A stretch of 64,000 nucleotides of DNA from Candidatus Hebobacterum abditum. Its GTDB lineage: Bacteria > Armatimonadota > Hebobacteria > Hebobacterales > Hebobacteraceae. The position numbers and the translations under genes are program-made. Positions within the stretch are counted from its first letter, which is position 1. Each line of letters starts with the position of its first letter. The stretch spans positions 1 to 64,000 of the forward strand of contig JALGXW010000015.1 of NCBI GenBank assembly GCA_029821875.1, given 5' to 3'. This document shows, in pieces, positions 19,700 through 63,862 of this stretch. The notes under the pieces were generated by a model. That model was given only the letters and a program-made list of their open reading frames with translations, was not told where the DNA came from and did no database searches.

Positions 19700-21184
19700 C
19701 TACGCATCCACCGCCTTCAGCTCGTCCGGATCGCCTGAGGACTCCGCCGATACGAATTGTCGGCCCATCATGATGAACCCGCCCGGATGCTCCAGCTTGA
19801 TCGCCGGCTGCCCCGTCCTTTCCTGTGTCGCCTCAAACGTCAACTGGCACTCTGACACGTTGCGCGCCCACTCGGGTGCCACCGCGACCCGTACGGCAAC
19901 ACCTCGCAGCCAGTCTACCTCGGCCAACTCGCGCAGCGCCCCCTGTGCGCGTCCGCTTAGCTCCCCGAAAGGCACACGCTCGCCCGCCTCCAGCCGCCGC
20001 CTATCCTCCTCGCTAAGCGACGCTATCCAAGTCGACGCTAGCTTCTCGAACTGATGCTGGACCTCGGCATAGAGTTCGGGTGCGGGCACCGGAAGCTGCG
20101 CACTCATTCCCGCGCGCAGCCCCGCAACCGCGTGGCGAACGTCCTCTACCAGTCGCGCTTGCAGCTCGGGTTGGGATGTGGGCGCAGTCCCCTGGGGCAT
20201 GTCGACCGAGATCTGGTATCGCCGCGGCCGCCCGGGCAGAGTCGTGCCCCGCATGCCTCCCGCCTTCGGGTCTGCACTGCCCCAAAGCTGCAGCGTTCGC
20301 TGCCCCTTGCGATCCCGCCCCAGACCTACCCAGGTGGCGTCCTTCAGCTCGGACGTGTGGCTGAGCAGATGGAAGATAATGCGGTCGAGCCACAGCCACT
20401 GCACCGCGAGGGCGAGTCTCTCCCTCGCCGCCTGGGGCAGCTCCTGTACCGGAATCGCCTCCCCCGCCGCGGCGCGTTCCGCCAGCCGCTCCGGCAGCCC
20501 CTCTCGCACTTCCGCGACCAGCCCTTGCCAGCGCTCTGTCACCACCTCTCCCAGCTTCGGGAGTTCCGGCGGCAGGCCCCGCCTCAGATCTCGTTCGAGC
20601 GCGCGGACCGTTCCGATGACGTCCTTCCGGAAGGTCTCGCCCAGCGGCTTCGCGCCGAAAGCATCCTTTACCATCGCCACGACCTCCGTCCGCAGGTGTT
20701 GGCGGGCGCGAGCGAGCCGCGTCTTCACCGTCTCCGGCCGCACTCCCAGGAAGCCGGCGATCTCGGCCTGCGAGTAGCCACCGACATAGGCCAGCGTGAG
20801 GGCCAGCCGGTCTGGCGCTCGCAGCCGGGCCAGCGCCTCTCGGACCACGACCTTGGTCTCGGAGGGCGGGGGCGCGTCCGCGGTCCCGGTGGCCGCCTCC
20901 AGCGCGACCGTGCTCACCTGACGGCGGCGGCACTGCGCGCGGTGGAGGTTGGTGGCGATCGTGCGCAGCCAGCCCGCGAACTTCGCTGGCTCGCGGAGCT
21001 GGCCCAGCTTGACGAAGGCCTGCACGAAGGCCTCCTGCGCGAGATCGCGGGCGGCCTCGAAGTCCCCGGTGAGGTGGTAGCCCAGCCCGTAGACCATATC
21101 TCGGTAGCGGTCCACCAGCTCGCCGAAGGCCTCCCGGTCGCCCTGCCGCGCCCGCGCCACCAACTGCCGGTCCGTCGGCCTCAT
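19700..21184 (-). CDS. ECF sigma factor with long C-terminal extension
   Basis: The 494-residue product begins with a standard ECF sigma factor: region 2 at about 10-75 (DRYRDMVYGLGYHLTG, DLAQEAFVQAF) and region 4 at about 125-175 (LTLAYVGGYSQAEIAGFLGV then TVKTRLARAR). About 310 further residues have no family I recognise; they include an amphipathic, arginine-rich helical part and a beta-rich end. Such extensions are known in several ECF groups, where they modulate activity in place of an anti-sigma factor, and no anti-sigma gene is adjacent here. The start at 21184 has GAGGA six bases upstream. It lies between a URO-D-like gene and a copy of that gene's 3' end. Confidence 0.88.
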   Translation of the reverse strand: MRPTDRQLVARARQGDREAFGELVDRYRDMVYGLGYHLTGDFEAARDLAQEAFVQAFVKLGQLREPAKFAGWLRTIATNLHRAQCRRRQVSTVALEAATGTADAPPPSETKVVVREALARLRAPDRLALTLAYVGGYSQAEIAGFLGVRPETVKTRLARARQHLRTEVVAMVKDAFGAKPLGETFRKDVIGTVRALERDLRRGLPPELPKLGEVVTERWQGLVAEVREGLPERLAERAAAGEAIPVQELPQAARERLALAVQWLWLDRIIFHLLSHTSELKDATWVGLGRDRKGQRTLQLWGSADPKAGGMRGTTLPGRPRRYQISVDMPQGTAPTSQPELQARLVEDVRHAVAGLRAGMSAQLPVPAPELYAEVQHQFEKLASTWIASLSEEDRRRLEAGERVPFGELSGRAQGALRELAEVDWLRGVAVRVAVAPEWARNVSECQLTFEATQERTGQPAIKLEHPGGFIMMGRQFVSAESSGDPDELKAVDA

Positions 21185-46223: not shown

Positions 46224-47855
46224 CTAGCCGCGAAGTGCCGCGGCCAGGTCGGGCACGTCGCGGGCGAAGGCAGGGGCGTTCTCTGCCCCCGCGAAGTTGA
46301 GCCCGCGCTGGTGCCAGAACCTCGTGGTGCTCAGAAGGGAGGCGACGAGCCAGCGACGCAGCGGGGTCGGCGCCCCCGCGCGTGAGACGCCTTGCAGCGC
46401 GTGGATGGCGGCTCCCGCCACCTCCGGCTTGTTCTCCTGCAGCCATCCCTCATCGTGGCCAAGCAGGTAGGCCTGCCACCCCCAGAGGTAGCCGAGTGTA
46501 GTATAGAGTCGATGAGGATCGTCGCGCAGAACGTGGCGCATTTGGGTGTTGCAGAACCAGCGAGTTTCCTCGAGTTGCGAATCGTCGCCGCCGATGATCC
46601 GAAGGTAGATCCCCAGGCGGCGGAGGGTCTGGAACCCACACCGGGACTCAAGCCCGCCATCAAGGCCGTCGCCATAGAACACCCGCTCGAGGATCCCATC
46701 TGCGGTGACCTGCTTGCGCCACCGTTTGGCGAGTGTCTTCATCTCTTCCTCTGGCCCGAAGAAGGCGGCGCGGACGAGTTCGACGAAACACCTTGCCGCC
46801 TCGTGCTTCTCGGGCGTCGGCTCGCCCAGCCATTCGGCCACCTCCTCGTCGAGGGGCTCTGCGGCCTCCTGCCCAGCATCGACCCACCGCTGGGCCGCCA
46901 GGGCCAGGCGCTCGGCTTGGCGGGCCACACTATCAGGCACGTCTCCACATCTGCCGGCCGCGGTCGGGCGAAACTCCTCGTCCCCGATCATCCCGATGAG
47001 GCTGTCCAGCCCCTCCAGCCACCGATGAGAGCATATCTCGAAGCCCCACTCCGGCACCGCGCCTTTGACCTGGCGCGCCCATTCGGGCATCTCGCCGATG
47101 TCCGCCTCCATGGCATCGAGGAGTTCGGCCTCCGCCTTCTGCGCTTCCTCGTTGGCCGTCTGTGCCTCCGCCAGCGCCTCCCACCACGCGCTCGTGAGCT
47201 CGTCCATCTCCGTCAGCGACACCACCTTGCGAGGGAACTCCGCTGGCAGCTTGTGCTCATTGAAGACCTCTCCCACCATGGGACTCACCTCTTCCACAGC
47301 ATAGGGCGCCAGGGCTCCCCTGAGTTTCTCTCGGGCGCGATGGATGAGAGACTTCGCAGTGCCGAGAGGGATGTCCAGGAAGTCGGCGACCTTCTGGTAC
47401 GACAGGCCGTTCAGGTGGAACATCGTCAGGGGCAGGCGGTACTTGTCGGGCAAGGATGAGATCGCCTGCAGCACCGCCTCGCCCAGCTCCCGTCTCTCGA
47501 CGATTTCGGGCGGCCCGGGCCGGAAGTCCGGGATGTCGAGGCTATCGAGATCGACTCGGCCGTTCAACTGCTCGAAGGAGCCCCGGCGGAACGCCCGTAG
47601 CCAGTTCATCGCCACGCCGAAGGTCACCCGCCGGAGCCAGGCGGCGAAGCGGCCGGCGTCCGCGAGCTGGCTCAGGTTGACGTAGGCGCGGATGAAGGTC
47701 TCCTGAGCAATGTCCTGCGCGTCGGCCCAGTTGTCGACCAGGGTGTAGGCCAGGCCGTAGACGTGGCCCTGGTAGCGCGCCACCAGCGCGCCGTAGGCCT
47801 CGGCATCGCCGTCCCGCGTCATTGCTACGAGCTGGGCGTCGGTTGGGTCCGCCAC
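46224..47855 (-). CDS. ECF sigma factor with large C-terminal extension
   Basis: The 543-residue product begins with ECF region 2 (YGALVARYQGHVYGLAYTLV, then AQDIAQETFIRAYVNLSQL) and region 4 (LPLTMFHLNGLSYQKVADFL, then IPLGTAKSLIHRAREKLRG). About 360 further residues (about 185-543) are helix-rich, with many charged residues and no family that I know. It starts at a GTG preceded by AGGGG. The extension does not resemble that of the other long ECF protein at 19700-21184. The upstream histidine kinase, 95 bases away on the same strand, could be cotranscribed and provide the signal. Confidence 0.88.
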   Translation of the reverse strand: MADPTDAQLVAMTRDGDAEAYGALVARYQGHVYGLAYTLVDNWADAQDIAQETFIRAYVNLSQLADAGRFAAWLRRVTFGVAMNWLRAFRRGSFEQLNGRVDLDSLDIPDFRPGPPEIVERRELGEAVLQAISSLPDKYRLPLTMFHLNGLSYQKVADFLDIPLGTAKSLIHRAREKLRGALAPYAVEEVSPMVGEVFNEHKLPAEFPRKVVSLTEMDELTSAWWEALAEAQTANEEAQKAEAELLDAMEADIGEMPEWARQVKGAVPEWGFEICSHRWLEGLDSLIGMIGDEEFRPTAAGRCGDVPDSVARQAERLALAAQRWVDAGQEAAEPLDEEVAEWLGEPTPEKHEAARCFVELVRAAFFGPEEEMKTLAKRWRKQVTADGILERVFYGDGLDGGLESRCGFQTLRRLGIYLRIIGGDDSQLEETRWFCNTQMRHVLRDDPHRLYTTLGYLWGWQAYLLGHDEGWLQENKPEVAGAAIHALQGVSRAGAPTPLRRWLVASLLSTTRFWHQRGLNFAGAENAPAFARDVPDLAAALRG

Positions 47856-62803: not shown

Positions 62804-63018
62804 GTGCTTCACTTCCCCCTTCCTTTGGCTGCGGCGATTCGCCGGGCAGGTGCTTGCATCCTGCACCAGTCATTGTGCGTTCCCGTTGGACGGGAGCCTT
62901 GGCCGCCTCGGGCGGCGTGCTTCCTGCCCCTTCTCCAGATGAGGGGTGGCGAGCGGCCGTGCTCCACACCTCTCTCAAGCCGCTCGCCCTTCCTTCGACT
63001 GTCGCGCGAGGGCGCGAC
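62804..63018. other. Intergenic region with degenerate family A pieces
   Basis: There are GGGCAGGTGCTTGCATCCTGC near 62844-62864 and TTCCTGCCCC near 62920-62930, which look like decayed family A arms. I see no gene here. Confidence 0.4.
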
Positions 63019-63111
63019 CTACTTGGCTTTGCGTTCGCTCTTCGCCTTAGCAGGCTTCTTCGCAGTGTGCTTCCTCTTCGAGTCTCTGCATCCGCACCCG
63101 CAACGTGCCAT
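63019..63111 (-). CDS. Cys/Lys-rich microprotein (30 residues)
   Basis: A 31-codon frame begins with an ATG eight bases after GGAGG, a strong ribosome-binding site that overlaps the stop codon region of the ECF sigma gene. The product is MARCGCGCRDSKRKHTAKKP followed by AKAKSERKAK: three cysteines as C-x-C-x-C, then a lysine- and alanine-rich tail with 14 basic residues overall. It starts 5 bases after the sigma stop codon, so it is cotranscribed. It could bind metal and nucleic acid or act as a small anti-sigma-like factor; nothing is known. Confidence 0.6.
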   Translation of the reverse strand: MARCGCGCRDSKRKHTAKKPAKAKSERKAK

Positions 63112-63116
63112 TCGTC

Positions 63117-63755
63117 TCACCTCCCTTCCGTCAGAGTATCGGCGCAGACGCAGCCCGGGCTGCCGCACCGTGTCATAATCTGCTCGACCATCTCCTCCGA
63201 GGAAATCTGCAGGGACAGCAGTTCCCTCACCACCGGCAGGAGCTTCCGCTTCGCCTGTTCGCGGCCCTCGCGGAGGCGGCTCTTGACGGTCGTCGGCGAC
63301 AGGCCGAGAGTCGCAGCGATTTCCTCCTCCGTGCAGCCGGCCAGGTAGTGGAGGCCCAACGCCCCGCGGCTCTTCGGCGACACTTCAGCCAACATATCGT
63401 TGACGATATTGCCCAGTTCCGATTGCCTGAACCGAGCCGCCGAGTCCGGGTCCGCCGGCTCAGGGAGGGTCTCCAGTGGCACTGGCGCGGCCCGCTGGCG
63501 GCGAAGCCACATTCGGCACACGTTCCTCGCCACACGGCGCAGCCAGGGCAGGAACTTGTCCGGGTCCCGTAGGTCCGCCAAGTCGCGGTAGACCCGGACG
63601 AAGACCTCTTGGGTCAGGTCTTGGGCCTCGGCCGCCTGTCCCACCTGGCTCAGGCAGATCGCGTACACCAGGCCGCGGTAGCGGGCCACCAGCGCACTGA
63701 ATGCTGACGCATCGCCTTCGACGGCCCTCTGGACCAGTGTCGTGAGATCTGTCAT
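63117..63755 (-). CDS. ECF sigma factor with C-terminal Cys cluster
   Basis: The 212-residue product has region 2 at about 15-80 (FSALVARYRGLVYAICLSQV, DLTQEVFVRVYRDLADL) and region 4 at about 125-175 (ALGLHYLAGCTEEEIAATLG, then LSPTTVKSRLREGREQ). The last 20 residues, TRCGSPGCVCADTLTEGR, carry three cysteines that could bind a metal or sense redox. GAGGAG lies five bases before the ATG. The microprotein gene follows directly. Confidence 0.92.
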   Translation of the reverse strand: MTDLTTLVQRAVEGDASAFSALVARYRGLVYAICLSQVGQAAEAQDLTQEVFVRVYRDLADLRDPDKFLPWLRRVARNVCRMWLRRQRAAPVPLETLPEPADPDSAARFRQSELGNIVNDMLAEVSPKSRGALGLHYLAGCTEEEIAATLGLSPTTVKSRLREGREQAKRKLLPVVRELLSLQISSEEMVEQIMTRCGSPGCVCADTLTEGR

Positions 63756-63862
63756 CAGTGCTCCTCATCTACCTGGGTGCGCGGCGCGCCCGAAAAGTTG
63801 GGTGACACAGCCCAGAATTTCGGCGCGGAGGGAGACATATCTGCCCCGGCCTCGAACATCTT

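Follow-up and report, generated by a model that had tools for sequence, protein, structure and literature searches.

A cysteine-tailed ECF sigma factor and its adjacent or fused CGCGC peptide in Armatimonadota

The locus and its relatives

The window analyzed here is a 64,000-nt stretch of contig JALGXW010000015.1 (79,874 b), from the 4.3-Mb draft genome of Candidatus Hebobacterum abditum. Its last genes, both on the minus strand, encode a sigma factor and, after a gap of only 5 bases (63112-63116), a peptide of 30 codons. A sequence-only reading of this DNA had described a sigma factor ending in the tail CGSPGCVC with a microprotein 5 bases further on, and the coordinates, sequence, and spacing are as it described them. 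The features of the locus are listed below in the order of transcription; G011, G045, G229, and G232 are the four other genomes in which the system was found.

63792..63803, minus strand: putative −35 element ACCCAACTTTTC in a candidate ECF promoter that belongs to the operon itself; identical 12-mer in G011 and G045
63772..63779, minus strand: putative −10 position (CACCCAGG), 17 bp past AACTT; the spacing matches that in relatives, and the sequence is a weak, poor −10 in the window
63117..63755, minus strand: ECF sigma factor gene, 212 aa, with Pfam and NCBIfam domains
63144..63167, minus strand: cysteine tail CGSPGCVC of the sigma factor (Cys197, Cys202, and Cys204; C-X4-C-X-C)
63117..63125, minus strand: ribosome-binding site of the peptide gene (GGGAGGTGA), with the sigma stop codon inside it
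63019..63111, minus strand: CGCGC peptide gene, 30 codons, MARCGCGCRDSKRKHTAKKPAKAKSERKAK, pI 10.5, with counterparts in four other lineages
63088..63102, minus strand: CGCGC motif (TGCGGGTGCGGATGC) inside the peptide gene, with codon differences at third positions only
63001..63018, minus strand: G+C hairpin directly 3′ of the peptide stop codon, terminator-like, without a T-run

Hairpins of −20 to −34 kcal/mol per 60–70 nt follow the peptide stop codon directly in all four readable loci (window, G011, G229, and G232); none has a T-run, so they are terminator-like only.

The sigma factor has the regions 2 and 4 and the length of about 200 aa that are typical of ECF sigma factors (PF04542, 2.8e-17; PF08281, 2.9e-11). 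It also matches TIGR02937 in NCBIfam, and SigE, SigH, RpoE, and SigW in PDB. Its C-terminus reads ...MTRCGSPGCVCADTLTEGR, also given as ...RCGSPGCVCADTLTEGR. The ortholog in G011, a same-class relative (contig JAKIYB010000198.1, “Armatimonadetes bacterium isolate UR.bin144”), is 52% identical over the whole length and has the tail CGSVRCDC (L002, the same as L051). In the G011 protein (L002:1498-2127, minus strand), about nine residues are missing from region 2.2 (YAICVA---DLTQDVF), the segment that contacts RNA polymerase; the gap is either a flaw of the assembly or genuine, in which case it would be informative about function.

A model of the tail, made from the last 54 residues of the window and G011 sigma factors and not using the peptide, was searched over 291 Armatimonadota genomes and added three tailed sigma factors with E ≤ 1e-8. 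A refined five-row model, searched over the same genomes, matched all five with E < 1e-23, the next best match being 4e-4. By construction, such models would miss relatives that have no cysteine tail. The five tailed sigma factors come from five different families, one per family, and the distribution is patchy (5/291 genomes, all draft assemblies or metagenome-assembled genomes of uncultured bacteria), with the system absent from the one same-genus genome examined. Weak matches at L134, L135, L137, L139, and L140 were rejected, being without a cysteine tail or unrelated. There was no match in samples reached via members of Planctomycetota (343), Bacillota (300), or Actinomycetota (397), and one weak match in a sample reached via Hydrogenedentota (68), all four being samples without a positive control. 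Searches of plasmids and viral contigs gave nothing; the viral L177 is an unrelated DNA-binding ORF.

The three tail cysteines are invariant in all five proteins, as is Cys34 of region 2. The tail has C-X4-C-X-C spacing, but C-X3-C-X-C in the fused forms described below. None of the five has a cysteine in the linker, and none of the other ECF loci inspected has a cysteine tail. In a tree built from the sigma bodies, with the tail removed, the five group as a single clade (93/75 support; recovered in 92% of bootstrap trees), with G229 and G232 nested inside it as a pair (support 100/100). AlphaFold models of the tail, run for two sequences, were unreliable (pLDDT < 50).

A conserved peptide, separate or fused

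The sigma factor and the CGCGC peptide are a conserved pair, encoded by adjacent or fused reading frames. When related genomes were searched for the microprotein behind the sigma factor, as the sequence-only reading had proposed, a stretch encoding CGCGC was found directly behind the tail at all five tailed loci. The peptide is a separate ORF at three of these (window, G011, and G045) and an in-frame fusion with the sigma factor at the other two (G229 and G232). The G011 peptide, MATKTETTKTTQASGQKQCGCGCQAKKDNK, has 30 codons and an ATG start that lies seven bases behind the sigma stop region; the G045 peptide, MCCGPCQPAPAPAPACGCGCGCGPSASF..., is a separate frame rich in Pro, Ala, and Cys that is truncated by the contig end. 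In the G011 and G045 loci (L051 3780-3800 and the L163 junction), only one TGA separates the peptide from the sigma factor, whose frame it shares, such that one base change or readthrough would yield a fused form like that of G229 and G232. In these two genomes, the sigma frame continues without a stop into ...RCGSGCECGLIIPEKEGSQ(V/M)A(E/D)KK...KSCGCGC(I/T)GKK, i.e., a K-rich linker followed by SCGCGCxGKK. AAGGAGG and a GTG or ATG start are retained at both fusion junctions, and a free peptide might conceivably be made from the same message as the fused sigma factor. The ribosome-binding site predicted to be strong in the window (GGGAGGTGA) is likewise matched elsewhere, with GGAGG ahead of the peptide start at 5/5 loci.

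Across loci, the peptide has 27–30 residues and a pI of 9.3–10.5. The earlier description of a peptide that starts ARCGCGC and has a lysine-rich tail applies to the window but does not hold as a general layout: in G011, G229, and G232, the order is reversed, with CGCGC after the lysine-rich stretch. Neither the sequence nor the position of the basic stretch is conserved, and the G045 peptide, as far as it can be read, has no such stretch. Indeed, the peptide diverges strongly outside CGCGC, which counts against the explanation favored below. No relative of the peptide scored above any cut-off in Pfam, NCBIfam, PHROGs, or PDB. Searches with the peptide alone reliably recover only the peptide itself; other matches were rejected as having no CGCGC or lying inside large ORFs.

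Is so short a frame a gene? The window has a single occurrence of a degenerate CGCGC pattern, against 0.04 expected in shuffles; genome-wide, the pattern occurs 6 times, against 8 for a reversed control, meaning that the motif alone is not rare. The other sites in the window genome are in unrelated frames, some of them in long oxidoreductase-like proteins. By contrast with the genome-wide rate, which predicts ~9e-5 occurrences per 130 nt behind a gene, the pattern is observed at 4/4 further tailed sigma loci, and the other ECF loci of the initial collection all lack it. Because CGCGC recurs behind tailed sigma genes, the ORF stands above chance. The motif evolves as protein: over its fifteen bases in five lineages, pairwise differences number 0, 0, and 26 at codon positions 1, 2, and 3. 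This is the opposite of the unconserved ORF with noncoding-like substitutions that the sequence-only reading had named as its refutation. For the fused pair, dN/dS estimates are about 0.23 (peptide part) and 0.02 (sigma tail), both from small samples. With only thirty codons and a motif at chance level genome-wide, an untranslated, chance reading frame might be suspected; the motif at 5/5 loci, the restriction of its changes to third positions, and the GGAGG at every locus leave that reading barely credible. On these comparisons, we take the 30-codon ORF to be a real conserved gene.

Promoter sequences and gene neighborhoods

The sigma genes of the window, G011, and G045 share an identical upstream 12-mer, ACCCAACTTTTC, in each case 17 bases ahead of a −10-like position. 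G229 and G232 have CCGACCTTTTG, followed after 16 bases by TATCTA. The corresponding −10-like sequences are CATCTGA in G011 and CAACTAC in G045; the −10 region of the window matches poorly, a point against the favored explanation. We infer that the −35-like pattern is what would be expected if the sigma factor transcribed its own operon from an ECF promoter. An 11-mer, CCCAACTTTTC, is present in single copy in the 4.3-Mb window genome and in the 8.3-Mb G045 genome, both times before the sigma gene; in G011, another copy lies within a reading frame. When one mismatch is allowed, the 12-mer recurs three more times in the window genome, each time within a long reading frame, and other exact or near −35 matches in G000 and G011 were set aside for lying inside such frames. 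Because the −35-like CCCAACTTTTC precedes three sigma genes and is found nowhere else in the window and G045 genomes, the operon probably controls mainly itself. The search, which would miss targets with a diverged −35, suggests that the sigma factor has few other strong targets.

The genes nearby give a hint of the signal. In G045, a string of genes on one strand (L163:908-4473, minus strand) leads into the genes for the sigma factor and the CGCGC peptide and encodes, in order, ArsR, an ArsP_1 permease, Thioredoxin_3, an unassigned CXXC protein, DsbD_2, and AhpC/TSA (AhpC-TSA); it is a possible metalloid or thiol stress cluster. The G011 neighbors are ArsR-rhodanese, DsrE, an Fe-S protein, and a cysteine desulfurase-like protein. 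Because of these G045 and G011 genes, metalloid or sulfur/thiol stress is hinted at as the signal. The neighbors in the window, G229, and G232 have no metal theme, which weighs against the favored explanation. No match to an anti-sigma family was found among the neighbors scanned. At L160:3364-3840 (plus strand), a rubrerythrin-like ferritin-fold gene lies about 2.4 kb beyond the sigma gene, on the opposite strand.

Possible regulation and known systems

Cysteine clusters at the C-terminus of ECF sigma factors can serve as sensors. CorE and CorE2 of Myxococcus xanthus, formerly ECF44 and now in or near ECF238, sense Cu or Cd/Zn through a C-terminal cysteine domain (PMC3107203, PMC8999054), and OrbS senses Fe(II) through a C-terminal cysteine cluster (PMC9023288). 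These precedents support reading the tail as an on-board cysteine sensor. The explanation we favor, with a probability of about one half, is a self-controlled, CorE-like ECF sigma factor that has such a sensor and works with a very small peptide. A metal or thiol signal shared by the two proteins, as the sequence-only reading had suggested, is reasonable because a conserved gene is tied to the sigma factor and both have invariant cysteines. Zinc binding, anti-sigma activity, and DNA or RNA contacts of the lysine-rich part, which that reading also raised, are speculative. The pair may be a metal- or thiol-responsive switch with its sensor split into two genes.

Fusion of two otherwise separate neighbors is classic evidence of a direct working link, and the natural fusion in two lineages supports such a link between sigma factor and peptide. 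Metal binding by the tail and peptide, the ligand, and the direction of control are what we infer beyond this. One and the same soft metal or metalloid ion would be bound by both the tail (C-X3/4-C-X-C) and the CGCGC peptide, or both would react to a common thiol stress. The activity of the sigma factor would be set by contact between the two, made in cis in the fusions and in trans elsewhere. Active sigma factor would raise sigma factor and peptide together, since the only strong promoter copy lies before the operon. Because it would thus chiefly make more of both, the peptide would be expected to act as a brake that completes or strips the metal site of the tail and shuts the sigma factor off once the stress has passed. 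The more specific version, a bipartite sigma factor whose metal or thiol site is completed by a separate ~30-residue peptide, with a fused tail in sister lineages and an operon that mainly targets itself, is tentative and somewhat less probable than the favored explanation as a whole.

The peptide could instead be just an output of the sigma factor's response, a minimal metal or thiol buffer resembling a metallothionein, which would end the response by lowering free metal and leave the sigma factor untouched. The three closely spaced thiols of CGCGC and the single conserved promoter for both genes would suit such a scavenger, and the ribosome-binding site and start inside the fusions could still give free peptide. 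One three-thiol site per peptide would, however, be a weak stoichiometric buffer, and a peptide meant to scavenge freely would have little reason to be joined to a sigma factor, as it is in two lineages; we consider this reading unlikely, at perhaps half the weight of the favored one. A true micro anti-sigma or co-sigma factor, whose basic stretch would contact the sigma factor, RNA polymerase, or promoter DNA and whose cysteines would act as a redox latch, seems distinctly less probable than a scavenger. High charge, the fusions, and the need of a self-controlled operon for restraint are in its favor, but the peptide resembles no anti-sigma family in Pfam, NCBIfam, or PDB, and what is conserved is CGCGC rather than the basic stretch. 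There is very little to recommend a sactipeptide-like RiPP precursor with maturation genes elsewhere: its match to TIGR04067 in NCBIfam (E 0.0086) scores 16.1 bits, far below the curated cut-off of 45, the peptide is fused to the sigma factor in two lineages, and no maturase is among the neighbors scanned.

Several known systems share parts of the favored architecture. Like CorE and CorE2, the tailed proteins are ECF sigma factors with no anti-sigma factor among the neighbors scanned, a short cysteine tail ending in CXC after region 4, and, probably, partial self-control. The CorE extension has 38 residues and six cysteines, four of them invariant in the group (181, 184, 192, and 194; C-X2-C-X7-C-X-C), and a CXC also lies in the sigma2-sigma4 linker of the CorE group (PMC3107203); most of ECF238 also has no linker cysteine (PMC8999054). 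Unlike CorE, the tailed sigma factors have three tail cysteines, no linker cysteine, and a CGCGC peptide that is separate or fused; no such peptide is described next to corE (PMC3107203, PMC8999054). Because the four invariant tail cysteines and the linker CXC were looked for and not found, we place the tailed sigma factors outside the CorE group as defined. OrbS of Burkholderia cenocepacia (ECF243) differs in its C-X2-C-X3-C-X5-C cluster, in being an iron-starvation sigma factor, and in having no partner peptide. ZAS proteins such as ChrR and RsrA are likewise small, cysteine-bearing partners encoded beside an ECF sigma gene. Unlike the CGCGC peptide, however, their domains are far longer and have a His/Cys zinc motif; the 30-aa peptide has no such motif and no match in Pfam or NCBIfam. 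Bacterial metallothioneins are also very short and contain cysteines and CXC motifs, whereas the CGCGC peptide has three cysteines in 30 residues and no match in Pfam, NCBIfam, or PDB.

We found no description of the separate CGCGC peptide and its fused counterpart in the open-access literature, and the arrangement is likely novel. It adds a conserved protein of 27–30 residues that is absent from the family libraries searched, and the natural split and fused versions of one regulator make peptide regulation of a sigma factor directly testable. If the favored explanation is true, the CGCGC peptide would be among the smallest sigma factor partners known, and the system would show an on-board sensor arising by fusion or being lost by splitting. 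Two more ECF sigma domains are encoded in the window (20654-21166 and 47280-47831, minus strand), in frames with open lengths of 808 and 557 aa; these are sigma domains with very long extensions.
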